A stretch of DNA of 33,424 nucleotides, from positions 64,380 through 97,803 of the forward strand of contig PWHN01000057.1 in assembly GCA_003554945.1 (NCBI GenBank). The letters run 5' to 3'. Positions 3,260 to 33,424 of the stretch are shown one piece after another (within the stretch, counting starts at the first letter, position 1; every line of letters begins with the position of its first letter). Under the pieces are notes generated by a model. It did no database searches. It was not told the DNA's origin and saw nothing but the letters and a program-made list of their open reading frames with translations. The translations under genes were made by a program, and so were the position numbers. Origin of the DNA: a bacterium. GTDB taxonomy: Bacteria; T1Sed10-126.

Positions 3260-3344
3260 TTGTAACTACTCACCTTATCTTTCCCCCTCCCCCTCACCCT
3301 AACCCTCTCCCCCCAGGGGAGAGGGGATAGATGAGTAGTTACAA
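3260..3344. repeat. MITE-like palindromic repeat with 13-bp terminal arms (family A), copy 1
   Basis: Perfect 13-bp inverted arms TTGTAACTACTCA (3260-3272) and TGAGTAGTTACAA (3332-3344) frame a pyrimidine-rich core containing CACCCTAACCCTCTCC and a second palindrome CCCC-AGGGG. A close copy in the same orientation lies at 20569-20641, with a full left arm but only 7 bp of the right arm. Related cores occur at 6481, 15851, 23831 and 24270. The element fills the space between polA and pncC. No transposase is encoded. Confidence 0.85.
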
Positions 3345-6480: not shown

Positions 6481-6532
6481 TCCCAAAAGCCCTCTCCCCT
6501 GGAGGGAGAGGGTTGAGTGAGGGGAGAGAAGG
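6481..6532. repeat. Family A palindromic repeat, copy 2 (inverse orientation)
   Basis: Contains CCCTCTCCCCTGGAGGGAGA as a near-perfect palindrome followed by GGGTTGAGTGAGGGGAGAGA. Read on the minus strand it matches the CTCACCCTAACCCTCTCC core of the copy at 3260-3344. The 13-bp terminal arms are absent. Confidence 0.75.
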
Positions 6533-15631: not shown

Positions 15632-15850
15632 GAATAAATCCCTTCTCGCCAGATCAAACTTAAGAGTCAACCCAATCATTCGGAAGGTTCTTGAATAATC
15701 ACATCTAAAACGAATGATTTCATTGCTTTTTTACGCACCTATAAGTATAATGATATCTTAAATCGGCTGGAATATATAGATGAGTTTGACCAAACTCACA
15801 ATCTACCAACGATCTAGCCAAGACGGCCACCAGCCCGCTCTTGATTTTAC

Positions 15851-15889
15851 TCCTCTCCCCCCGAGGGAGAGGACACAGGTGAGGGGGGA
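15851..15889. repeat. Family A palindromic repeat, copy 3 (degenerate)
   Basis: TCCTCTCCCCCCGAGGGAGA and a following GGTGAGGGGGGAA. On the minus strand this reads as the CCCCCTCACC...CCTCTCCC core of family A. The outer 13-bp arms are absent. Confidence 0.65.
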
Positions 15890-15910
15890 ATTTGAACTTG
15901 AACTAACGCT

Positions 15911-16606: not shown

Positions 16607-16686
16607 GGGCTAAATGTTTAGCACCTGGATTATCCTTACGGATTTGACCTATTGATCGTCATTGCGGACACCGTTCCGCTTTTATC

Positions 16687-16786
16687 TGAACTTACGGTTT
16701 TGATCGGTCTTTCGCTTAAAGCTTTAAGCTTTAGGCTGAGCTTACGGTTTTGATTGGTCTTCAGCTTTCAGCTTTTAGCTTTAGGC
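16687..16786. repeat. Two tandem 50-bp repeats upstream of tRNA-Leu
   Basis: Unit 1 (16687-16736) and unit 2 (16737-16786) are both exactly 50 bp. The first 25 bases (TGA-A/G-CTTACGGTTTTGAT...) differ at only two positions. The second halves are variable runs of CTTTAAGC/CTTTTAGC-type heptamers to nonamers. The array ends 16 bases before the tRNA and may include or displace its promoter. Confidence 0.75.
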
Positions 16787-16802
16787 TTTTAGCTGAACTT
16801 TT

Positions 16803-16889
16803 GCCGGAGTGGCGGAACAGGCAGACGCGCGGGATTCAAAATCCCGTGGGCTTTATCGGCCCGTGCGGGTTCGACCCCCGCCTCCGGCA
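16803..16889 (+). tRNA. tRNA-Leu (anticodon CAA)
   Basis: The acceptor stem GCCGGAG (16803-16809) pairs with CTCCGGC (16882-16888), discriminator A at 16889. The anticodon stem CGGGA/TCCCG holds loop TTCAAAA, giving anticodon CAA for codon UUG. The long variable arm (GGGC...GCCC) and the T-loop GTTCGAC fit a class II tRNA-Leu. CCA is not encoded: the gene is followed by TTTTTAG. Length 87 nt. Confidence 0.96.
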
Positions 16890-16949
16890 TTTTTAGTTGG
16901 AAAGTGGGAAAGTTAGAAAGTGAGAAAGTTGGCTAGTTGAGAAGTAAAC

Positions 16950-20568: not shown

Positions 20569-20641
20569 TTGTAACTACTCATCTTATCTTTCCCCCTCAC
20601 CCTAACCCTCTCCCTCCAGGGAAGAGGGGATAGATGAGTAG
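20569..20641. repeat. Family A palindromic repeat, copy 4 (same subtype as 3260-3344)
   Basis: The left arm TTGTAACTACTCA (20569-20581) is identical to that of the 3260-3344 copy. The core CCCTAACCCTCTCC is shared, and the end GATAGATGAGTAG retains 7 bp of the right arm. The orientation is the same. It lies between tonB and the TPR gene. Shared arms over 17 kb apart point to copying of a discrete element. Confidence 0.85.
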
Positions 20642-20654
20642 ATAGGACATATTT

Positions 20655-23830: not shown

Positions 23831-23875
23831 TAATCCCCTCCCCCCTGGAGGGGGAGGGTTAGGGTGGGGGGGAGA
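23831..23875 (-). repeat. Family A repeat, left inverted flank of DUF559 gene
   Basis: TAATCCCCTCCCCCCTGGAG followed by GGGGAGGGTTAGGGTGGGGG. On the minus strand it reads CACCCTAACCCTCCCCCTCC-AGGGGGGAGGGG, the mirror of the copy at 24270-24311 on the other side of the DUF559 gene. Distance from the gene end is 38 bases. Confidence 0.8.
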
Positions 23876-23913
23876 ATTAGAAAAAGAAACAGTAAAATGT
23901 CTCTCTAAATTTT

Positions 23914-24261
23914 TCATGATTCATCAAGCCCCTTTAAAATTTGCTCCAATACTTTATCTATCTCTTTTAAAACTTCGTTGTTCCAAAACCTTAATACAGT
24001 AAATCCTTCACTATTCAACCGATCAGTTCTCTCATCATCATACGTCTTATTTTTTTGGTGCTGACCACCGTCTAACTCCACAATAAACTTTTTTTCAAAA
24101 CATTCCACAATATATTTATCTATTGGCTGCTGACGTCGAAATTTATAGTCATCCAAATTTTTCTTCCTCAGGTGATACCAAAGTTTTTCTTCAGCATCTG
24201 TCATATTTTTCCGCAAGTGCTTCGCTTTTTCAACATTTTTCTTTTGATATTTACGTTTCAT
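23914..24261 (-). CDS. DUF559 nuclease-like protein (Vsr-related PD-(D/E)XK fold)
   Basis: Seen: a 115-residue basic protein with MTDAEEKLWYHLR (Glu at about 25), FRRQQPIDKYIVEC (Asp at about 48), the core VELDGGQH (Glu 62, Asp 64, His 68), and YDDERTDRLNSEGFTVLRFW. These are the motifs of DUF559, a family related to very-short-patch-repair endonucleases, with the likely metal-binding residues intact. The function of free-standing DUF559 proteins is not established. The gene lies between two PorV-like barrel genes that otherwise look adjacent, and is flanked on both sides by inverted copies of the family A palindrome, which looks like insertion of a discrete unit. Its stop overlaps an in-frame ATG of the downstream barrel frame. 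Confidence 0.88.
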   Translation of the reverse strand: MKRKYQKKNVEKAKHLRKNMTDAEEKLWYHLRKKNLDDYKFRRQQPIDKYIVECFEKKFIVELDGGQHQKNKTYDDERTDRLNSEGFTVLRFWNNEVLKEIDKVLEQILKGLDES

Positions 24262-24269
24262 AATTCAAC

Positions 24270-24311
24270 TTCCCCCTCCCCTTAATCCCCTCCCTCCAGG
24301 GGAGGGGAGAT
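24270..24311 (+). repeat. Family A repeat, right inverted flank of DUF559 gene
   Basis: TTCCCCCTCCCCTTAATCCC followed by CTCCCTCCAGGGGAGGGGAG. The orientation is opposite to the copy at 23831-23875. It lies only 8 bases upstream of the DUF559 start codon, so the gene's translation signals lie directly against or inside the repeat. Confidence 0.8.
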
Positions 24312-24337
24312 ATTTCGGGGGCTATGGCCTTTCCTAT

Positions 24338-25600
24338 TCATTGGTTATCCCTCGCATTCTGCAGGTATTCCCGCGCCTTTTCATAATTACCAATCTGGTA
24401 ATAAGCCTGTCCAAGCTGCCTGTATACACCGCTCTGTCCGGGAGCATCCCGCAGACTCTGCTCCCACAACTCGATTGCCTGCTCGTAGTTACCTGCCTCT
24501 AAGTGCTGCTCGGCGCGCGAGTTAAGCTCAGCGTTTTCCTCATCAATTTCTTCACTGCGTTCTGGAATTAGCTCCTTAAGATCTCGCTCCAGCCCCTCGC
24601 GGAAGCGACGCCGTTCTTCAGGGTCTACAATCTCCGGTCGTTCCCTGATCAACCTTTCCTCGGGCCGGTGACCAAACTCGAAAGACATCGAGAAGACGTG
24701 ACTGGCTTCCAGGTTTGTGCGATCAGAGTAACTGTAATCAAAAGCAAACTGACCATCATTAACTCCAAGACCGGTATAAAATTGCCCGTCGTCGCTATAA
24801 TCACGCGAAGTAGAATAACCGGCCCGCAGGTCGAGAAAATTAACGAGATTATACTCCGCACCCAGGGCAAAATAAGTGATATTTTCCGGCTGATAATATA
24901 TTAGATCGTTGGCCAACGTTAAACGCCTCTCAAAGGGCTGAAAGTCATAAGCCCAACCGGCGCGAACAGTACGCGGCAGTGGATCTCCTTCTTCAATAAA
25001 TTTGATATCCGGCCCCAGGTTCTGCACCACCGCTCCAAGACGCAGCGGTGTCCGCGGAGAACTGTAATGCAGGCCAAGATCGAGCGCATAACTGCTGGCA
25101 TCATAGTCAGCCAGTTGTTCACGAATGTATTTGGCGCCTGCTCCCAGAGACAGACCATAACGACTTCCGTAAGCGTAGTTTAACGAAAACGAACCGCTGT
25201 AATTTGTAAAATCAGAACCGTCCTCCCACTCTGAGCGGTAGTAATCAGTGGTGTGTAACAATCTCCCTCCCACGCCAACAGTATGACTGGCCCCAAACGG
25301 ATAAGCCAGGCTCAAATATTCGTTGTCAATATCTAAATCGGGAAATAGCTGCTCGTGGCTGACGCTGAATACGCCCCGTTCCAACCGGCTCATGCCGGCC
25401 GGATTCCAGTACATTCCGAAACCGTCATCAGAAACAGCCGTATAGGCGCCGGCCATAGCCGTAGCTCGCGGGCCCGCCTTGACACGCAGGAAATCCGCGC
25501 CGACTATACCGACGTCACCAGCCCACACCGGAGAAATCCCCAAACATAAAAACAGTATTACTGTCAATATTACCAAGGGCTCTATTTTTCGACTACTCAT
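24338..25600 (-). CDS. PorV/PorQ-family barrel protein with C-terminal TPR domain
   Basis: Seen: signal peptide (LVILTVILFLCLGISPVWAG), then GADFLRVKAGPRATAMAGAY and DDGFGMYWNPAGMSRLERG, the classic PorV/UPF0164 opening. Beta-strand pairs follow up to about residue 315 (VFSMSFEFGH). The C-terminus (about 345-420) has two TPR units: SRAEQHLEAGNYEQAIELWE and GQAYYQIGNYEKAREYLQ. Known: PorV is the outer-membrane shuttle of the type IX secretion system; PorV-like proteins with TPR tails occur in several candidate phyla. The neighbouring upstream gene encodes a protein with a T9SS/FlgD-like C-terminal domain, which fits a secretion role but does not prove it. The ribosome-binding site is weak. Confidence 0.85.
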   Translation of the reverse strand: MSSRKIEPLVILTVILFLCLGISPVWAGDVGIVGADFLRVKAGPRATAMAGAYTAVSDDGFGMYWNPAGMSRLERGVFSVSHEQLFPDLDIDNEYLSLAYPFGASHTVGVGGRLLHTTDYYRSEWEDGSDFTNYSGSFSLNYAYGSRYGLSLGAGAKYIREQLADYDASSYALDLGLHYSSPRTPLRLGAVVQNLGPDIKFIEEGDPLPRTVRAGWAYDFQPFERRLTLANDLIYYQPENITYFALGAEYNLVNFLDLRAGYSTSRDYSDDGQFYTGLGVNDGQFAFDYSYSDRTNLEASHVFSMSFEFGHRPEERLIRERPEIVDPEERRRFREGLERDLKELIPERSEEIDEENAELNSRAEQHLEAGNYEQAIELWEQSLRDAPGQSGVYRQLGQAYYQIGNYEKAREYLQNARDNQ

Positions 25601-25686
25601 AACACTTCACCCCACAATGGGTAAAAGTTTCTCTCGCCAACATACCACAAACCATCTTCTGGCACGCAGATCCCGCCGCTAACTTT

Positions 25687-25746
25687 CGCCCCCTCGCCCC
25701 ATCTCCCCATCGACACTCCACGTTCCCCGCCCTTGAACTTGACCTT
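25687..25746. repeat. Intergenic octamer repeat plus CTTGAACTTGACC motif, copy 1
   Basis: Units CGCCCCCT, CGCCCCAT, CTCCCCAT and CGACACTC run in an exact 8-base register. After a short spacer follows CCCTTGAACTTGACCTT (25730-25746). The same two blocks recur at 27350-27425 and 31518-31600. Just before, at about 25660, lies GGCACGCAGATCCCGC, also found at 27243. No gene is supported between 25601 and 25789. Confidence 0.7.
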
Positions 25747-25789
25747 CGCTCTTGTTGTTGACGCCAAGCGCGAAGCGCCCCGCGATCGT

Positions 25790-27169
25790 TTACTTAACAA
25801 GGGTAACCTTGCCCCTTTCGACGCCATATTGTGATTTAATCACGTAGACATAGGTACCACTGGCCACGTAACTGCCGCGGTCGTTCTTGCCCCACCAGCG
25901 GGCTTTGTTACCGCTTTCGCGAAAGTCTATGCCCCGTCCAACAGTCAACCGCCGCACCATCTGTCCCTGCACGTTGTAGAGGAAGATCTCCATACCGTCA
26001 TCTGCCGGCAGATCCTGGAATACGAACGGGTCGCCTTCAAGCGGTTTAAACGGCGACGGCCAGGTTCTGACCTCATCCAGCGTATCGATGTGGTCGGGAT
26101 CGGGATCGGGCGTCCAGACAGTGGTATCTTCCCCGGCCAGGGCAGCATCCATAACGTCCGTATTAACCGAGGCTCTAATGTAAGTAGTTTCGCCACGCAC
26201 CTCAAGGAAGGGCGTCTTGCCTTCCAACGCCGGGTGTTCATCAAAACGTGAATGTCCCTCCGTAAAGCCAAACTCAAGCTCATAGAGTGGAATATCTGCA
26301 TCTTCATCCTCTTCCAGAACTATGTCAAGTTCTGAACCGGTTAATTTATCACCATATTTATCCTCGGACCAAATGCTTACCGGCAGCGTATCGCCAATAG
26401 ACGGCTGCTCTGCCCTGATCATACCAAGAGGTTCTCCCGCTTCGTCCGTCCGCCCCACGTATTTTTCTTCCCTGAAATAGAGCGGCTCGGGTTCTTCGGC
26501 AGTTACTGGAATCACTACTGTATCTGCTCCGCGGCCTCGTTTAGAATCCACCCAGGCACTGTCGGGATGGCTGGTTTCTGCCACAATAGTTATCGTATCG
26601 GCTTCAAAATTACTATCCAGATCTATCTCTAGACCAATATATTTGGTATCCATAGAATCAACTATAGACTCTATTCTGCCGGTAGAATCAATAGTATCCC
26701 CATCTACATCTGTTAGTCTGATACTTTCTATGCCCGTTTCTCCAGCAACTGAAGTATCCGCGGAAAGACTGAACTCATCCGGCGCATTCCCCAGATTCCA
26801 GGCCTCAATGTCAATTATGTCAGATGCGCCCGGCAACATTCTATGCTCGTTATGTTCGGGTATCAGGTGTGGGAACGCAAGCGTATCCACACTTGCCGAA
26901 ACTTCTGCCGGAGTCATATACGTAGTATCTCCGCCGTCTCGGTTACGGGCGATCATAACCATTTCACCGGGACCGGCCGGCAGGCGATTATCAGGTGTTT
27001 TAGCATTCTCAATTACTGTTCCTACAGGGGTCGTATCCGTCTCCAAATCATACTCAAATCTTCCTTCTACCGGACTAACACACAGCAGCAGAACGAGCAG
27101 ACCAATCCCACAGAGCAGATAACGGGACCAATTGCGGAAAAGCCCGCTCATCCTGCTGGTTTCATTCAT
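25790..27169 (-). CDS. Secreted protein with FlgD-like/type IX secretion C-terminal domain
   Basis: Seen: signal segment (YLLCGIGLLVLLLCVSPVEG), an N-terminal part with PAGPGEMVMIARNRDGGDTT similar to the start of the three DUF11 proteins to the right, an Asp/Glu/Thr-rich middle, and from about residue 370 a C-terminal domain. That domain has TWPSPFKPLEGDPFVFQDLP, IFLYNVQGQMVRRL, WWGKNDRGSYVASGTYVYVI and final GKVTLVK. This is the FlgD-Ig-like/T9SS type A sorting pattern (NPFNP, YNxxGQxVR, WDGxNDxGxxVxSGxYxY). Known: such domains send cargo through the type IX system or anchor it at the surface. A PorV-like gene lies just downstream. No catalytic domain is seen. Start ATG 27169 has GAGGTG 8 nt upstream. 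Confidence 0.83.
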   Translation of the reverse strand: MNETSRMSGLFRNWSRYLLCGIGLLVLLLCVSPVEGRFEYDLETDTTPVGTVIENAKTPDNRLPAGPGEMVMIARNRDGGDTTYMTPAEVSASVDTLAFPHLIPEHNEHRMLPGASDIIDIEAWNLGNAPDEFSLSADTSVAGETGIESIRLTDVDGDTIDSTGRIESIVDSMDTKYIGLEIDLDSNFEADTITIVAETSHPDSAWVDSKRGRGADTVVIPVTAEEPEPLYFREEKYVGRTDEAGEPLGMIRAEQPSIGDTLPVSIWSEDKYGDKLTGSELDIVLEEDEDADIPLYELEFGFTEGHSRFDEHPALEGKTPFLEVRGETTYIRASVNTDVMDAALAGEDTTVWTPDPDPDHIDTLDEVRTWPSPFKPLEGDPFVFQDLPADDGMEIFLYNVQGQMVRRLTVGRGIDFRESGNKARWWGKNDRGSYVASGTYVYVIKSQYGVERGKVTLVK

Positions 27170-27425
27170 GCGTTACACCTCACTTTTGAACCACAGATTT
27201 CACAGATAAAATTCGGATTTAATTCAAAATAAACATCTTTTTGGCACGCAGATCCCGCAGATAACTTCGGATTTATGGTCAAGCCCTTGCTTTGGGCGGG
27301 CTGTGAACCGCTAAACCTAAATCCTGTCAATCCTGTCAATTGCCTCACGCCCTTGAACTTGACCTTGATTCCCACGCGCTTTCGCCCCCTCGCCCTATCG
27401 CCCCACCGCCCCATCGACACTCCAC

Positions 27426-27450
27426 GCGGTACCAAACACACAGGAGGTGC
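27426..27450. repeat. Inverted copy of the DUF11 ribosome-binding region, downstream of paralog 1
   Basis: On the plus strand this reads GCGGTACCAAACACACAGGA then GGTGC. It matches, in reverse orientation, the leader of paralog 1 (29180-29204) at 22 of 25 positions if one G-U pair is allowed. In the transcript of paralog 1 this places an anti-Shine-Dalgarno sequence downstream of the stop codon. A near-identical copy lies at 31654-31678 downstream of paralog 3. Confidence 0.75.
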
Positions 27451-27690
27451 ACTTAGACTCGAATTCGCCGCAGAGGTCCCTGGATGCGATACAGGCCACC
27501 CCTGCAAATTACACCGGTCCGCAGACCATCGCTTGCCCTGTCGCAAATCACGCACTAATTTGCTTCGGAGCCGGCCGCGGCTCCTATTGAACTGTTCCGG
27601 GCAACCACGCCTGCTCAGCACTGATTCCCGGGTCGAGTCTATACTGCTTCGGTCATTCAAAAGATCCATCCTTTCTTCTGCAAATTCAAA
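27451..27690. repeat. Conserved block downstream of DUF11 paralog 1
   Basis: Shares ordered short matches with 31679-31890: CATCGCTTG, CAAATCAC, CAACTG/GAACTG, TTCCCGGGTCG and AGATCCATCCTTTC. Spacing differs little. On the minus strand both open with GAAAGGATGGATCT and can be read as peptides sharing MDLL, a STRE/TTRE motif, DL-KRW and PPVCLV, but the AAAGG abuts the ATG, so translation is doubtful. Best described as duplicated 3'-flanking DNA of two paralogs, possibly structured RNA. Confidence 0.5.
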
Positions 27691-27899
27691 TCACCTGCAA
27701 GTTGAGCAAGCCCCTCTCAACAGATCATCAACCTCAATCTAAAGGCTCCGGCCCGCTCAGACATTCCCGATCACCGACCGGTTATCCGGAACTGTCCTGC
27801 CTGCACAAGCTGCACGCCTTACAACCAACCCACCGGCAGCCTGCCGCAAGTATACAGCCGAACTACCGCAGTCCTGAGACCACCCAATAAAAAACATCA

Positions 27900-29174
27900 T
27901 CAGTTGATCTGAACAGTGAATTCAACTAACCGGTTACCAGGCACATTTTCATTAAAATCCGGGTCTTCATCACCGTAAGGCCCTATCTCATGAAAATGCC
28001 AGCGGAGCATCTCTACGTCCGTATCGCCATCTGTAGGTTCTTCACCGGTGAAATCATCGTAGTCGTAACCATCCGCATACTCGAATTCATCCGCTTCACC
28101 TTGCTCCCCCGAATAATACGTCGTATGCTCCGGAATAGCATCGATGATCTCGATATCGGTCGCCGTGTCACCACCATGGTTGGAAACAGCTATCTCATAA
28201 CTAATCGTGTCACCAGGGCGCCGGCGCCAGTCTTCAACATCCAGTGCTTGCTTATCGATAGCCATATCCGGACCTAGGACCTGAGTTACAAACCAGCCGG
28301 TCTGGGTGTCAAAACGGTCCTCTTCAACCGGCATTCCACGCTCCCAGCCGTCACCGTAGGGATATTCCCCCTCGTGAGTAGGGGCGTTATTGGTCACCTG
28401 AAACCTGGACTTTATCCAGTCTTGATCACTTACATTTCCGTCGGAGGTAACGACAAGATAAATTGTCTTTACCTCGCCGTAGGACCAGCCAGATATTTCA
28501 CCGTCGACAAGATTTCCATCTTGCCCGGCTCCGACCGCGTCCTGGGAACCATCAAAATCTGCCGCAGTATTGGCACCGTCTTCGTAGTAAAGCTCGACTG
28601 TAAACTCTCCTTCCTCTTCATCCGGGTCCAATTCTTCGACATAATTCTCGTGCAGCGCGTCGTAGTCGATGTTTACGTAGTTGTTACTCATGTTCATCAC
28701 CTGCACGGCTCGCACCACCGAGTCGCTGGCTGTAATCGACACCGTGTCGGCCGGATCGTAATCCTCTAGATCAGAACCGTCACTCATCTCAACCTCACGG
28801 AAAATTTGCTCGAAATCCTGTCCTTCGACCGTGGAGGAGTCAGGCCGGGCAATATAGGACATGTCCCAGCCGGTATCGACGTTATCCTCAATTTGATCCG
28901 CTATAGCATAACTGGTGTCGGCTCCCTGCAAGTTTCTCCAACGCAGGGCCAGTTCACCAGGGTCGCCGGGCAGTTCCTGCGGGCCCGGATCAATAGCGTT
29001 AATTATCTCCTCCATCGCCTTGGTTATCGTGTCACCGTCATCAACCGCACTCTCCATCGAGATCTTGTCCGTGTCGGACTCTACTGCCTGTGAGGGCGAT
29101 GGGCTCACAGCCAGTCCAAAGGCAGCAACAAAAGTCACTGCAAGAAAAAGAATTAAAATCTGTTTAAATCGCAT
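27900..29174 (-). CDS. Secreted DUF11-domain protein, paralog 1
   Basis: Seen: signal peptide (ILILFLAVTFVAAFGLAVSP, then SQAVE), an N-terminal module with IINAIDPGPQELPGDPGELA and WRNLQGADTSY, a middle domain with VVRAVQVMNMSNNYVNIDYD, and from about residue 305 a DUF11 domain (RRPGDTISYEIAVSNHGGDT, then EIIDAIPEHTTYY). It ends in VEFTVQIN. DUF11 is an Ig-like repeat of bacterial surface and S-layer-type proteins. The 424-residue protein is about 15% Asp/Glu or more by eye. No membrane anchor or sorting motif is seen at the C-terminus. Start ATG 29174 has AGGAGG about 8 nt upstream in a conserved leader. Two paralogs lie upstream. Function unknown; surface structural role inferred. Confidence 0.85.
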   Translation of the reverse strand: MRFKQILILFLAVTFVAAFGLAVSPSPSQAVESDTDKISMESAVDDGDTITKAMEEIINAIDPGPQELPGDPGELALRWRNLQGADTSYAIADQIEDNVDTGWDMSYIARPDSSTVEGQDFEQIFREVEMSDGSDLEDYDPADTVSITASDSVVRAVQVMNMSNNYVNIDYDALHENYVEELDPDEEEGEFTVELYYEDGANTAADFDGSQDAVGAGQDGNLVDGEISGWSYGEVKTIYLVVTSDGNVSDQDWIKSRFQVTNNAPTHEGEYPYGDGWERGMPVEEDRFDTQTGWFVTQVLGPDMAIDKQALDVEDWRRRPGDTISYEIAVSNHGGDTATDIEIIDAIPEHTTYYSGEQGEADEFEYADGYDYDDFTGEEPTDGDTDVEMLRWHFHEIGPYGDEDPDFNENVPGNRLVEFTVQIN

Positions 29175-29179
29175 CGTTA

Positions 29180-29283
29180 GAACCTCCTGTGTGTGTGATA
29201 CTGCAAGATTAATTGTGCGTAATGTAACGTCGTACTGTGCTGCTAATGCTGTCCTTTGCTACAATACTTGTCGTATCACCTCC
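29180..29283 (-). promoter_or_regulatory. Conserved 5' leader of DUF11 paralog 1
   Basis: On the minus strand the leader starts with the perfect anti-16S match GGAGGTGAT (in 29274-29283), which has no start codon at normal spacing. It runs through a block conserved with paralog 3 (GACAGCATT, CACAGTACGACGTTACATTA, CGCACAA) and ends at GTATCACACACACAGGAGGT, whose AGGAGG serves the gene. GTGATAC near the 5' end can pair with GTATCAC near the 3' end. The counterpart is 33166-33270; paralog 2 lacks it. Confidence 0.7.
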
Positions 29284-29382
29284 CGTTGTTGGCGGGGAGC
29301 AGGGCGCAGGGGGCGGGGGGCTAAACCCGTAAACCCTTAAAATCCTCTGCTCGCAGACCGTAAAATAATCGATCATTTCCAT
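29209..29382 (-). CDS. Possible 57-residue ORF behind the four-helix-bundle gene
   Basis: An ATG at 29382 lies 19 bases after the four-helix-bundle gene and is preceded by AAAGGAGAGGG at good spacing. The frame begins MEMIDYFTVCEQRI, passes through the GC-rich repeat (YGFSPPPPAPCSPP) and ends within the leader of DUF11 paralog 1 (TVRRYITHN). The signal for translation is real, but the sequence is built from repeat and leader, so it may be a spurious frame. Its repeat part is read in the same frame as the ORFs at 29772 and 31334. Confidence 0.25.
   Translation of the reverse strand: MEMIDYFTVCEQRILRVYGFSPPPPAPCSPPTTGGDTTSIVAKDSISSTVRRYITHN
29289..29336. repeat. GC-rich repeat I, copy 1
   Basis: TTGGCGGGGAGCAGGGCGCA, continuing GGGGGCGGGGGGCTAAACCC. 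Of 48 bases, 47 equal the copy at 31351-31398. A diverged copy lies at 29794. Copies 1 and 2 flank the four-helix-bundle gene as direct repeats. Confidence 0.85.
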
Positions 29383-29401
29383 TTTATTTCCCTCTCCTTT
29401 T

Positions 29402-29770
29402 TTAAGACTTTCTCAAACTTTTTTGAAAATTCGTTATTTGTCGGGATAATTGCTCAAGTTCTGTCACAATATCCTTACAAGGGTCAGGATCAATTAACCC
29501 ACGTCTACGAAAAACTGTAAGCATATTTACGTTCTCGAAAATAGAACGCCGTGCAATTCCCAAAAATCGGCTAAACTCCTTATCACTATCACAACCGGCT
29601 CCTTCCGCGATATTATTAGATACAGACAAAGCAGCTCCGTTAAGCTGCTCAGCAAATTTATACTTTTTCTTTTGCGCGATTTCCTCCGCTATGTCATAAA
29701 GCTTGTCTCCCACGTTTATTGCCATTTTCCAAATTTCAAACTTCATAAAGCGAAACGGCTCGTCTTGCAT
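29402..29770 (-). CDS. Four-helix-bundle protein (S23/TIGR02436 family)
   Basis: Seen: a 122-residue protein with FEIWKMAINVGDKLYDIAEE, EQLNGAALSVSNNIAEGAG (NNIAEG at about 52-57), FSRFLGIARRSIFENVNML and LEQLSRQITNFQKSL. This is the order of the 23S rRNA intervening-sequence/four-helix-bundle family (PF05635). Known: originally found inside 23S rRNA intervening sequences; Avd of diversity-generating retroelements has the same fold; the role of free-standing copies is unknown. Here no reverse transcriptase or rRNA is nearby. The gene sits between DUF11 paralogs 1 and 2, flanked by direct copies of repeat I. AGGAGTG is 7 nt before the ATG. Likely a repeat-associated insertion into a duplicated surface-protein array. 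Confidence 0.9.
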   Translation of the reverse strand: MQDEPFRFMKFEIWKMAINVGDKLYDIAEEIAQKKKYKFAEQLNGAALSVSNNIAEGAGCDSDKEFSRFLGIARRSIFENVNMLTVFRRRGLIDPDPCKDIVTELEQLSRQITNFQKSLRKS

Positions 29771-29771
29771 C

Positions 29772-29888
29772 TCAAATCACTCCTAAAAATCTTTTGGCGG
29801 GGAGCAGGGGACCGAGGGCTGGGGACCCGTTAACTCCTGAAAACCCTTGCTTAACCTGCTCTGCCTTGAGATATCCATCATCACTCAT
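29772..29888 (-). CDS. Possible 38-residue ORF upstream of the four-helix-bundle gene
   Basis: ATG 29888 has AGAGG about 6 nt upstream. The peptide MSDDGYLKAEQVKQGFSGVN and 18 more residues ends with a TGA one base before the four-helix-bundle ATG. A second ORF of exactly 38 codons at 31334-31450 shares QV-Q-FSGVNG at identical positions and also ends at the start of the next gene. Both cross repeat I. Could be a leader peptide coupling translation, or a chance frame within a repeat. Confidence 0.3.
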   Translation of the reverse strand: MSDDGYLKAEQVKQGFSGVNGSPALGPLLPAKRFLGVI

Positions 29889-30060
29889 CAGTAACCTCTC
29901 CAGCTCAATTTCCTTTCTTGGTTTTGAACTGCTTTTTTTCTCGTTTTTGCTCTTAATTTTGCACTTGCCTTTGTCTTTTGCTCCACGCTCCCCGCCCCAC
30001 GCGCCCTTCCCTCGCACTTGAACTTGACGTTAGCCCCCTGCCCCCTGCCCCACGCCCCCC
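29794..30060. repeat. Composite repeat (diverged repeat I plus TTTTGAACTGCTTTT and CTTGAACTTGAC blocks)
   Basis: Begins TTGGCGGGGAGCAGGGG, then GTTAACTCCTGAAAACCC and AACCTGCT. It continues with GGTTTTGAACTGCTTTTTTT, TTTTGCTCTTAATTTTGC, GCTCCACGC-type text and CACTTGAACTTGACG, and finally a CCCCCTGC run. The same blocks in the same order occupy 31351-31600. It fills the space between paralog 2 and the four-helix-bundle gene. Confidence 0.7.
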
Positions 30061-30068
30061 GCTGCTCT

Positions 30069-31334
30069 TTAGTTAATCCAAACTTCAAAACGCACCACCC
30101 TTTCACCGGTATCAGGAGCTTCCCAGTCAATCTCCCAATCTTCCGGATCAATTCCCTCGTTATATTCAATCTCATCGTACGTCCAGCGTATCTTTTTCAC
30201 GTTTTCCGGTTCGTCCACATCCCAATCCTCACCGTCATACTCACTTTCAAATTCAACCGTCAGATTATCCTGCAGAATGGTATCCCCTTCGGCACTTTCC
30301 GGCACATAAGTAGTATGCTCTGGAATCGCATCCACAACCTCAATTTCCGTCGCCTTGTCACTACCGTAGTTAACTATCGCTATCTCATACCCGACCGTAT
30401 CTCCGGGTCGCATCCTCCACGCGCCCGTATCACGCGCCCGCTTATCAATCATCATACGCGGACCGGTTATCTCGGTCACAAAGTAACCCCACTGGGTGTC
30501 AAACCGGTCCTCAGCAGTCGGCAGGCCGCGCTCCCAGCTATCACCACTGGTGCTGGCATCGTCGTCATGCACCGGCGCGTTGTTGGTTATGAAGAACTCC
30601 GACTCCACGTAGTCGCCGTCACTGACCTGGTCATCAGCACTGATCACGAGGTAGATAGTCTTGACCTCGCCCATCGTCCAGCCGTCGATATCACCGTCAG
30701 CTCCATCAACACGAGTTATTCCCCCACCAACGTCACCGCTATCAAAATCAGTCGCTTCCCGGAAACCGTCCTCGTAAAACAGCTCCAGGCTGAAGGAACC
30801 TTCTTCGATCTGATCTATCTCTTCGGCTATCGTGTCGTGGTAGCCGCTGAAGTCGATATCGACGTAATTGTTGGAAAGATTAGCCACCTGGACGGCCCGA
30901 ACCACCGAGTCACCGGCGCTCATACTGACCGTATCGGCGCCGATATTACGTTCTTCTTCCGTGCCAAACCGGGCCCGGCTGAATACTGGTTCGTCGGCAC
31001 CATCGACGTCAATAGTGGAAGAATCAGCCGCCGCAATATCCGACATGTCCCAGCCGGTGTCGACACTGTCGGTCACTGTCTGCTCCGGCGCTTTCCAGCC
31101 GGTGTCACCGCCGGCAAGGTTGGTCCAGTTGACGACAAGCTCACCGTGGGTATCGGGATAACGCTGCTGCGTGGCGGCAGTGTCAAAGGCGTTGACTATC
31201 TCCGTCAGCGCCCGCGTCACACCAACATCAACCGTGGTCTCCTCGGCCACAGCCTGCCCCGCCGGCAGAGCAATCCCCACAGCTGCCAGAGACAGACCAA
31301 CAAGAACCGAAACCAACCACTGATTACGTTTCAT
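30069..31334 (-). CDS. Secreted DUF11-domain protein, paralog 2
   Basis: Seen: signal peptide (LVSVLVGLSLAAVGIALPAG, QAVAEE), N-terminal module with VDVGVTRALTEIVNAFDTAA and WTNLAGGDTGW, a middle part with VVRAVQVANLSNNYVDIDFS and EVKTIYLVISADDQVSDGDY, and a C-terminal DUF11 domain (MRPGDTVGYEIAIVNYGSDK, EVVDAIPEHTTYVP) ending in VRFEVWIN. 421 residues. It is closer to paralog 3 than to paralog 1 in the N-terminal module. Unlike the others it lacks the conserved leader: its start codon follows repeat I directly, with AAGGGG about 9 nt before the ATG, and the stop of a 38-codon ORF overlaps the ATG. Expression control is therefore probably different. Confidence 0.85.
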   Translation of the reverse strand: MKRNQWLVSVLVGLSLAAVGIALPAGQAVAEETTVDVGVTRALTEIVNAFDTAATQQRYPDTHGELVVNWTNLAGGDTGWKAPEQTVTDSVDTGWDMSDIAAADSSTIDVDGADEPVFSRARFGTEEERNIGADTVSMSAGDSVVRAVQVANLSNNYVDIDFSGYHDTIAEEIDQIEEGSFSLELFYEDGFREATDFDSGDVGGGITRVDGADGDIDGWTMGEVKTIYLVISADDQVSDGDYVESEFFITNNAPVHDDDASTSGDSWERGLPTAEDRFDTQWGYFVTEITGPRMMIDKRARDTGAWRMRPGDTVGYEIAIVNYGSDKATEIEVVDAIPEHTTYVPESAEGDTILQDNLTVEFESEYDGEDWDVDEPENVKKIRWTYDEIEYNEGIDPEDWEIDWEAPDTGERVVRFEVWIN

Positions 31335-31450
31335 TAGAATGAACCCCTTATTGGCGGGGAGCAGGGCGCAGGGGGCGGGGGGCTAAACCCGTTAACCCCT
31401 GAAAACCTCTGACCAACCTGCTTCGCCTCAAAGTGTTCTGCATCGTCCAT
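31334..31450 (-). CDS. Possible 38-residue ORF upstream of DUF11 paralog 2
   Basis: Begins MDDAEHFEAKQVGQRFSGVN and ends in IRGSF. Its TAA overlaps the ATG of paralog 2 by one base (TAATG). It matches the ORF at 29772-29888 in length and in QV-Q-FSGVNG. The ribosome-binding site is weak (AGGA about 10 nt upstream). Most of it is repeat I. Confidence 0.25.
   Translation of the reverse strand: MDDAEHFEAKQVGQRFSGVNGFSPPPPAPCSPPIRGSF
31351..31398. repeat. GC-rich repeat I, copy 3
   Basis: 47 of 48 bases equal 29289-29336, 2 kb away, in the same orientation. The following AACCCCTGAAAACC and AACCTGCT blocks match the copy at 29794-29870. The copy ends 17 bases before the start of paralog 2. Confidence 0.85.
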
Positions 31451-31517
31451 CTTTAATCAGTCCTATTCACTTGCGTTCCGCGGTTTTGAACTGCTTTTTG
31501 CTCTTGATTTTGCTCCA

Positions 31518-31600
31518 CGCGCCCCGCTCCATGCCCCATCACCCCACCGCCCCATCGACACTCCACGTCCCCCTCCGCCCTTGAACTTGACCTTGATTTC
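31518..31600. repeat. Octamer repeat plus CTTGAACTTGACC motif, copy 3
   Basis: CACCCCACCGCCCCATCGAC and CACTCCACG, then CCCTTGAACTTGACCTTG (from 31578). It has the same block order as 27383-27425 and 25687-25746, although at 27350 the CTTGAACTTG block precedes the octamers. Confidence 0.65.
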
Positions 31601-31610
31601 CACGAACTTT

Positions 31611-31650
31611 CGCCTGTTCGCATGCTCGCCTGTTCTCCTGCTCGACGCTT
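31611..31650. repeat. Five-unit 8-bp tandem array
   Basis: CGCCTGTT, CGCATGCT, CGCCTGTT, CTCCTGCT, CGACGCTT in exact register. The reverse complement is GAACAGGC/GAGCATGC-type, matching the array at 33281-33320 in opposite orientation on the far side of DUF11 paralog 3. Confidence 0.75.
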
Positions 31651-31653
31651 CAC

Positions 31654-31678
31654 GCAGTACCAAACACACAGGAGGTTC
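31654..31678. repeat. Inverted copy of the DUF11 ribosome-binding region, downstream of paralog 3
   Basis: GCAGTACCAAACACACAGGA then GGTTC on the plus strand. It pairs with the leader of paralog 3 (33166-33190): 23 of 25 positions, one of them G-U, including all of AGGAGG. It lies about 310 bases after the paralog 3 stop codon. Confidence 0.8.
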
Positions 31679-31890
31679 AAATCCTTGTTCGGGTACAATC
31701 TTCCCCAACACATACAACCAGGACGGCAGCCATCGCTTGTCCCGCCACAAATCACTCACAAATTCGTGTCGAGACACCGCACGCCCTTTATTCAACTGCA
31801 CCGGTGCACCGCCGAAAAACGATGCTTCCCGGGTCGTAAAGTTCAACTTCGCTGTAACCAATAGATCCATCCTTTCAAGGGTGTTCTCAT
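31679..31890. repeat. Conserved block downstream of DUF11 paralog 3
   Basis: Counterpart of 27451-27690, sharing CATCGCTTG, CAAATCAC, TTCCCGGGTCG and AGATCCATCCTTTC in order. Together with the flanking inverted sequence it shows that paralogs 1 and 3 were duplicated with their 3' flank. Confidence 0.5.
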
Positions 31891-31984
31891 TGCACTCCTC
31901 AAAAAATCGAAACACTGCACCCCTTCACTACTTACTCAGCCGGGAAAAATCTTTCCCCGGCCTCCATCAGACCGACTCCGCTCG

Positions 31985-33160
31985 TTAGTCAATGGTGACG
32001 GAGAAGCTAAGCTCCAGTGATCCGTATTCACCATCTTCCTGATCCGCCGGGATCGTGTCGTAATACCACCTGATCATCTCAGTAGCGTCATCATCCGCGT
32101 CATCAAAATTGTCAGCGTTGAGATTGTCAGAAAAATCTATATCAACAGATTCTCCATAATCAGGATCATCACCGGCGGCTGATCCGGCGATATAAGTGGT
32201 ATGCTGCGGTATAGCGTCAATAATCGTCACGCCCGACGCCGTATCGCTACCGATGTTATCCACTGTCAGGGTGTAATCTATAGTGTCTCCAGGTCGTGTG
32301 CGACCGCTTGGAGTATCGTGGGACTTGTCGATTTGGATAACCGGTCCCTCGACAACTGTCCAGAATAAACCGGTTTGTGTGTCATATTGATCCTCTCCGA
32401 CAGGCACGCCTCGCTCCCAGGCATCACCGCTTCCGGAAGGATCTCTAACCGGTGCGTTATTAGTCACCCAGAAATCAGATTTGATCTCATCGCCGTCAGC
32501 AGCATCAACGCCAGACTTTACAACTAGAAACAGGGTCTTAACTTCACCCATAGTCCAACCCGTCACGTCACCGTCGGAGCCTCCTACTCCTTCGAGATCT
32601 TCATCTGGCAAAGTGTAAAAGTCTTCCGCCGTGTAAGACCCATCAGCGTAATGCAACTCCAATGTGAAGGTGTCGTTGCCATCGGTAAATTCATTTTGAT
32701 AACCCTCACCAATTAAATGATACGCAGAGAAATCAATCTCGACGTAGTTATTGCCGAGATTGGCAATCTCCACGGCTCGCACCCTGGTGTCGTTAGCTGC
32801 TATCGACTCAGTTTCACCAAATACATCCGTTACTGCGAGGCCTTCAAAATGAGTTGTATCGTGGATATCCGACATGTCCCAGCCGGTGTCGACGGTGTCC
32901 GTAACCCGATCCTCGGGTGCAGACCAACCAGTGTCACCACCGGCAAGGTTGGTCCAGCGTGAGACAACTTCACCGCGGGCGTTTGGAAAACGTTCGTCAA
33001 CCGCCGCGGTGTCAAAAGCGTTGATAATCTGCTCCATCGCTCGGGTTACTCCAACATCAACTGTGTCATCGGCCTGCGCGGGCGATGGGTTCCACGCGAA
33101 ACCAATTGCAATAGCGATCGCTACTGCAACCAATAAAGTGAATAATCTTCTGACTTTCAT
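31985..33160 (-). CDS. Secreted DUF11-domain protein, paralog 3
   Basis: Seen: signal peptide (LFTLLVAVAIAIAIGFAWNP, SPAQADD), N-terminal module VDVGVTRAMEQIINAFDTAA with WTNLAGGDTGW, a middle domain (RVRAVEIANLGNNYVEIDFS, GEVKTLFLVVKSGVDAADGD), and a DUF11 domain from about residue 280 (TRPGDTIDYTLTVDNIGSDT, TIIDAIPQHTTYI) ending in LELSFSVTID. 391 residues, the shortest of the three. The ATG at 33160 has AGGAGG about 8 nt upstream in the leader shared with paralog 1. A surface-layer or appendage role is plausible from DUF11 and the signal peptide, but nothing specific can be claimed. Confidence 0.86.
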   Translation of the reverse strand: MKVRRLFTLLVAVAIAIAIGFAWNPSPAQADDTVDVGVTRAMEQIINAFDTAAVDERFPNARGEVVSRWTNLAGGDTGWSAPEDRVTDTVDTGWDMSDIHDTTHFEGLAVTDVFGETESIAANDTRVRAVEIANLGNNYVEIDFSAYHLIGEGYQNEFTDGNDTFTLELHYADGSYTAEDFYTLPDEDLEGVGGSDGDVTGWTMGEVKTLFLVVKSGVDAADGDEIKSDFWVTNNAPVRDPSGSGDAWERGVPVGEDQYDTQTGLFWTVVEGPVIQIDKSHDTPSGRTRPGDTIDYTLTVDNIGSDTASGVTIIDAIPQHTTYIAGSAAGDDPDYGESVDIDFSDNLNADNFDDADDDATEMIRWYYDTIPADQEDGEYGSLELSFSVTID

Positions 33161-33165
33161 CGTTA

Positions 33166-33270
33166 GAACCTCCTGTGAGTGTGATACTGCGAATTTAGGT
33201 TGTGCGTAATGTAACGTCGCGCTGTGCTACCAATGCTGTCACTTACTGCAAAAATTGTCTTATCACCTCC
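33166..33270 (-). promoter_or_regulatory. Conserved 5' leader of DUF11 paralog 3
   Basis: Aligns without gaps over most of its length to 29180-29283. It has GGAGGTGATA at its 5' end (33261-33270), a shared middle (CGACGTTACATTACGCACAA) and GTATCACACTCACAGGAGGT at its 3' end. The last 25 bases are complementary to 31654-31678 downstream of the same gene. GTGATA and TATCAC within the leader can also pair. Confidence 0.7.
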
Positions 33271-33280
33271 TGTACTGATC

Positions 33281-33320
33281 GAGCTTGCGAACTTGCGAGC
33301 ATGCGAGCTTGCGAAAATGC
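33281..33320. repeat. Five-unit 8-bp tandem array between 15-bp direct repeats
   Basis: GAGCTTGC, GAACTTGC, GAGCATGC, GAGCTTGC, GAAAATGC in exact register. The array is bracketed by TCCTGTACTGATCGA at 33268-33282 and again at 33334-33348. Such octamers resemble the array at 31611-31650, inverted. Confidence 0.8.
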
Positions 33321-33355
33321 AAAGTCAACAACATCCTGTACTGATCGAAGTTCAT

Positions 33356-33424
33356 TCAATTCTCCAGCACCCACTTTTGGTTGTCTTTGATCATTCGTGA
33401 TATTTGCCTGAGAATATGTTCATA
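33356..33424 (-). CDS. C-terminal fragment of a gene cut by the right edge, possibly four-helix-bundle type
   Basis: The last 22 codons plus TGA are open to the window edge on the minus strand, ending HILRQISRMIKDNQKWVLEN. The segment is amphipathic helical and resembles the closing helix of S23-type four-helix-bundle proteins (compare LEQLSRQITNFQKSLRKS of the gene at 29402). The octamer array follows it directly, as expected for this repeat-linked family. Too short for a firm call. Confidence 0.4.
   Translation of the reverse strand, partial: YEHILRQISRMIKDNQKWVLEN

Follow-up and report, generated by a model that had tools for sequence, protein, structure and literature searches.

Complements of the ribosome-binding site downstream of two tandem DUF11 genes in an uncultured bacterium: a possible RNA element

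Why should the sequence lying downstream of a gene be complementary to the ribosome-binding site of that same gene? Such an arrangement, found here at a DUF11 gene of an uncultured bacterium, might belong to an RNA control element, or might be left by the copying, inversion or movement of DNA. Few bacterial mRNAs are known to be regulated through pairing between their 5' and 3' ends. If this were the case here, circuits based on 5'-3' pairing would exist outside well-studied bacteria, could be duplicated along with genes, and could be predicted from DNA alone. If the sequences are inert, strong 5'-3' complementarity alone is no proof of regulation in repeat-rich genomes.

The window, i.e. the whole stretch of 33,424 nucleotides that was analysed, is the end of a contig in a 2.2 Mb draft genome from a poorly sampled candidate phylum. 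It holds three DUF11 surface-protein paralogs (Pfam PF01345), hereafter P1, P2 and P3, arranged in tandem on the minus strand (Table 1), and these are the only members of the family in the genome. Their pairwise aligned identity is 49-52%, and in the protein tree it is P2, not P3, that lies nearer to P1 (85/80 support). Comparison of the contig-end sequence with sequences elsewhere gave no useful match, so that the array upstream of P3 is unseen. Between P2 and P1, a minus-strand gene (29402-29770) encodes a four-helix-bundle 23S rRNA-intervening-sequence protein (PF05635). Downstream of P1, positions 24338-27169 encode a 459-aa protein and a PorV/FadL-like protein with TPRs; a protein of similar size follows the DUF11 gene L056 of a relative, which suggests a conserved surface or secretion cluster.

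Table 1. Features of the DUF11 array, with positions in the window and the data on which each one rests.
Feature	Position	Strand	Basis or remark
DUF11 paralog 1 (P1)	27900-29174	-	424 aa; PF01345, E=9.6e-8
P1 conserved leader	29175-29286	-	84% to P3 leader (BLAST)
P1 leader arm, including AGGAGG	29180-29205	-	pairing score, pair-by-pair comparison
P1 anti-Shine-Dalgarno block (putative), GCACCTCCTGTGTGTTTGGTACCGCG, reading 27450 to 27425	27425-27450	-	predicted duplex -35.5 kcal/mol
P1 downstream region in common with P3	27424-27680	-	alignment
DUF11 paralog 2 (P2)	30069-31334	-	PF01345
DUF11 paralog 3 (P3)	31985-33160	-	391 aa, signal peptide-like N-terminus; PF01345, E=5e-9
P3 conserved leader, GGAGGTGATA to start codon	33161-33273	-	99/119 identical to P1 leader
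P3 leader arm, including AGGAGG	33166-33191	-	repeat search, pairing score, pair-by-pair comparison
P3 anti-Shine-Dalgarno block (putative), GAACCTCCTGTGTGTTTGGTACTGCG	31653-31678	-	predicted duplex -41.8 kcal/mol
P3 downstream region in common with P1, conserved islands ending in block	31651-31882	-	alignment; not protein coding

A sequence-only reading of this DNA had claimed that the last 25 nt of the P3 leader are complementary to a stretch about 310 nt after the stop codon. Pair-by-pair comparison of 33166-33190 with 31654-31678 bears this out, with 22 Watson-Crick pairs, one G-U pair and two mismatches, and with a downstream block that starts 306 nt after the stop. One extra C-G pair (33191/31653) brings the pairing to 26 positions, and an independent repeat search returned the inverted pair 31653-31681 / 33163-33191 (86%). 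The pairing score was 51.5, whereas 300 dinucleotide shuffles gave 24.1 +/- 3.0 and never exceeded 39. We also scored 366 crude gene calls from a 414-kb sample of the same genome, among which higher values than that of P3 were due only to dispersed G/C-rich or REP-like repeats. Since the score is above those of the shuffles and of the non-repeat genes, the complementarity is not a chance match.

The same arrangement was then found at P1, a second case that was absent from the sequence-only reading. Positions 29180-29205 of the leader face 27425-27450 with 21 Watson-Crick pairs, two G-U pairs and three mismatches over 26 nt, and a score of 44.0 (dinucleotide shuffles, 23.5 +/- 2.9). The blocks of P1 and P3 are located 306 to 450 nt past the stop codon. 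A pattern search over the 2.2 Mb retrieved the 18-nt core of the leader at four sites only, namely the two leaders and the two blocks, which alternate strictly in orientation around P1 and P3, and the leader as a whole (about 113 nt) is found at no other gene of the genome. P2 has no leader/block element of the P1/P3 type. It is flanked by a different, G/C-rich inverted repeat (31354-31386 / 30030-30062; 33 nt, 85%), 6 nt past the stop and about 20 nt ahead of the start, which leaves the Shine-Dalgarno sequence outside; a panhandle reading of P2 was dropped, both flanks being members of dispersed repeats.

The duplexes predicted for P1 and P3 (Table 1) cover AGGAGG, and so do those of the crossed pairs, at -44.4 kcal/mol for the P1 leader with the P3 block and -32.9 kcal/mol for the P3 leader with the P1 block. 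When the complete putative mRNA is folded with a partition function, AGGAGG pairs with the block at a probability of about 1, and is partly open once the block is removed; these are equilibrium folds of a 1.7-1.9 kb RNA and do not show how it folds in vivo. The pairing is thereby predicted to be strong enough, provided that the two ends meet.

The explanation that we tentatively consider the most likely is masking of the ribosome-binding site by an RNA element, which would act in cis or, as an RNA released from the 3' end, on both paralogs. We infer that transcription would run past the block, which would then pair with the leader, either within one molecule, forming a panhandle, or in trans as an RNA derived from the 3' end. 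Pairing in the cell would cover the Shine-Dalgarno sequence and lower translation, and the duplex of about 23 bp might serve as a substrate for RNase III or another double-strand nuclease. Since each block is predicted to pair with either leader, one transcript could repress both genes. A cross-reacting post-transcriptional network in the tandem surface-protein array, in which the 3' end of either gene would silence both, is a bolder and rather unlikely extension of this proposal.

How does this compare with known systems? In Staphylococcus aureus icaR, a UCCCCUG motif of the 3'-UTR pairs with the Shine-Dalgarno region, and the 5'-3' UTR pairing blocks ribosome loading and makes an RNase III substrate (PMC3868564). 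At P3, the 3' region likewise complements the gene's own Shine-Dalgarno region; as in icaR, this 3' region is long, its motif is rich in pyrimidines, and a long-range fold is predicted. However, the key motif of icaR has 7 nt within about 40 predicted paired bases, whereas the match is here nearly continuous over 26 nt, and involves two paralogs whose putative pairs also match across the genes. OppZ and CarZ of Vibrio cholerae are 3'-UTR-derived sRNAs, each of which represses the transcript it comes from (PMC7398697), and a 3'-end RNA of P1 or P3 would similarly pair with its parent transcript and prevent translation; OppZ and CarZ are nevertheless RNase E-processed sRNAs of proven function, and the RNA proposed here is a putative one. 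In Bacillus subtilis hbs, the two ends of one mRNA pair as well, over 14 nt, and RNAIII is a further precedent of 5'-3' pairing (PMC7821165). The hbs pairing guards the mRNA from RNase Y, whereas here it would cover the Shine-Dalgarno sequence itself. A search for compensatory changes, which would support the icaR type without defining it, found none between the two cassettes. Membership of the P1 and P3 elements in the icaR or the OppZ/CarZ type is not established.

We next examined how the arms have diverged between the two cassettes. The leaders are 83-84% identical, and the high identity ends at the ATG. The blocks are identical at 25 of 27 positions, including a 20-base identical run of a length that arose in 75 of 20000 column shuffles, compared to 117 of 202 positions for the remaining shared downstream region. 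The genes themselves have 58% DNA identity, and where residues are identical, 43 of the 73 fourfold sites are different (59%), which is close to saturation. Both arms are more alike than would be expected of neutral sequence of equal age, unless they were copied between the cassettes later. Four of the 26 pairs vary between the cassettes, each being changed on one side only: one stays paired (C-G to U-G) and three are broken in one cassette. None of the four is compensated, with two sequences available, and one-sided changes are what drift would give, a weak indication with so few sequences. The sequence-only reading had taken one side changing alone as a sign against masking of the ribosome site, and that sign is partly present. 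For the masking proposal itself, recurrence at P1, conservation of both arms beyond that of synonymous sites and the folds count in favour, and the lack of covariation and the lack of a block in the relative described below count against.

Searches of genome contigs and of the phylum yielded a single relative of this genome in the same phylum, G001, from the same family. Only one named contig carrying a relative of the gene came out of the genome-contig search, PWOD01000133.1, from the metagenome-assembled 'bacterium isolate CSSed10_354m'. G001 has four DUF11 genes, three of them with usable flanks, and none of these three exhibits a leader-downstream match above shuffles. A search of G001 for the P3 downstream region found no relative. 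Viral contigs yielded no relatives.

According to the main rival explanation, the blocks are an inert inverted duplication: an inverted copy of 26-29 nt of the leader, with no regulatory role, would have been placed downstream by the time the cassette was duplicated or in the course of that duplication, and would later have spread or been homogenised along with the dispersed repeat next to it. A dispersed intergenic mosaic repeat (TTGAACTTGACCTTGATT ... CCCCATCGACACTCCACG) is indeed present at 31533-31645, 27348-27424 and 25688-25780 and at about 50 other places of the genome, and it abuts both anti-Shine-Dalgarno blocks. The stretch adjoining the two blocks, which contains this repeat, is 79% identical between the cassettes; block and repeat may thus be a recent copy rather than a conserved unit. 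The one-sided changes point the same way, as does the fact that the best complement of the P3 block is the P1 leader, which is expected of a near-perfect ancestral copy that has drifted. The flanks of P2 are also inverted repeats, of dispersed-repeat origin, so that inverted repeats are common at this locus. In addition, P1 is nearer to P2 in the protein tree and P2 lacks the elements, suggesting that the history of the flanks was separate or lossy. However, two differences between leader and block, T/C at pair 8 and C/A at pair 11, are identical in both cassettes, which argues against leader-block conversion within a cassette, and yet the arms have remained nearly unchanged between cassettes. 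Moreover, the inverted match stops sharply at 26-29 nt and sits on the ribosome-binding site, and the stretch shared downstream of P1 and P3 reaches beyond the dispersed repeat. We consider an inert duplication unlikely on balance, though it is the next most likely explanation after the RNA element.

Another rival takes the four alternating sites for recombination sites at which a whole gene is inverted, so that a surface protein would be switched on and off. Invertons typically act on surface-protein genes (PMC11892184, PMC2784873), and inverted repeats lie beside surface-protein genes in cwpV (PMC2784873) and gut invertons (PMC11892184) as they do here. The four copies are placed in strict alternation around two such genes, and a flipped gene would keep its Shine-Dalgarno sequence, which is inside the repeat. 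Against this, no match to the serine resolvase family was found in the genome, and the tyrosine recombinase hits on the contig are at 0.3-0.8 kb and 26 kb, at least about 65 kb from the sites (91.8-97.6 kb). The arms match imperfectly, unbroken identity extending over no more than 12-13 bp, half-site symmetry was not seen, and a flip would not put one gene behind the promoter of the other. Unlike the known switches, we are dealing with imperfect arms around whole genes and no recombinase nearby, and this makes invertible DNA an improbable explanation.

The sequence-only reading had proposed as its own alternative that the arms are terminal inverted repeats of a mobile cassette. A duplicated unit with inverted repeats at both ends has that look, but direct reading of the bases just outside the arms revealed no target-site duplication, no transposase lies inside, and no further copies exist in the genome, so we regard this idea as very improbable.

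Still less credible is that the block is part of a small protein-coding gene, with an incidental complementarity to the leader: an ORF starting with MDLL spans the block and is kept open over about 100 codons in both cassettes, but the differences in the downstream region fall evenly on the three codon positions (38/36/32, compared to 134, 110 and 223 in the genes), the changed codons comprise 4 synonymous and 55 non-synonymous ones, no Pfam match was found for the region, and a 26-nt complement of the leader would have to be a coincidence twice.

If the downstream region is not coding, does it have a structure? Its alignment supports a weak consensus structure (z -1.4 overall), and 8 of the 44 pairs in the fold have two-sided changes, compared to a mean of 6.7 in column shuffles, a difference that is not significant. 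The energy of one inner hairpin was reached by 5 of 300 shuffles, this hairpin having been picked after the fact. Rfam gave no match worth keeping over 24000-33424. A resemblance to tRNA of GGTTCAAATCC, on the plus strand of the block, was discarded, ARAGORN finding no tRNA there. The scan for promoters and terminators was uninformative, none being found that marks a transcript.

Regarding the leaders, their alignment folds worse than shuffles (z +1.9), and the leader thus looks open, by design or by composition; a hairpin GGTGATA/TATCAC that appears in folds was rejected in view of the same alignment. A second Shine-Dalgarno-like sequence, GGAGGTGA(T), is located upstream of the working one at 29274-29283 and 33261-33270 on the minus strand. 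It is present in the leaders of P1 and P3 and of three DUF11 genes of the relative (L055 and L056 leaders), and GGAGGTGAT has 7 occurrences only in the 414 kb sampled. A conserved two-site leader is possible in this DUF11 gene family.

Two further kinds of repeats were observed in the window. Intergenic REP-like palindromic repeats (CCCTCTCCCCCCAGGGGAGAGGG) are found at 3287-3341, 6490-6530, 15836-15891, 20591-20644, 23833-23876 and 24271-24324. At 16678-16777, just upstream of a tRNA-Leu gene (16802-16890), a 50-nt unit is present twice in tandem (80%).
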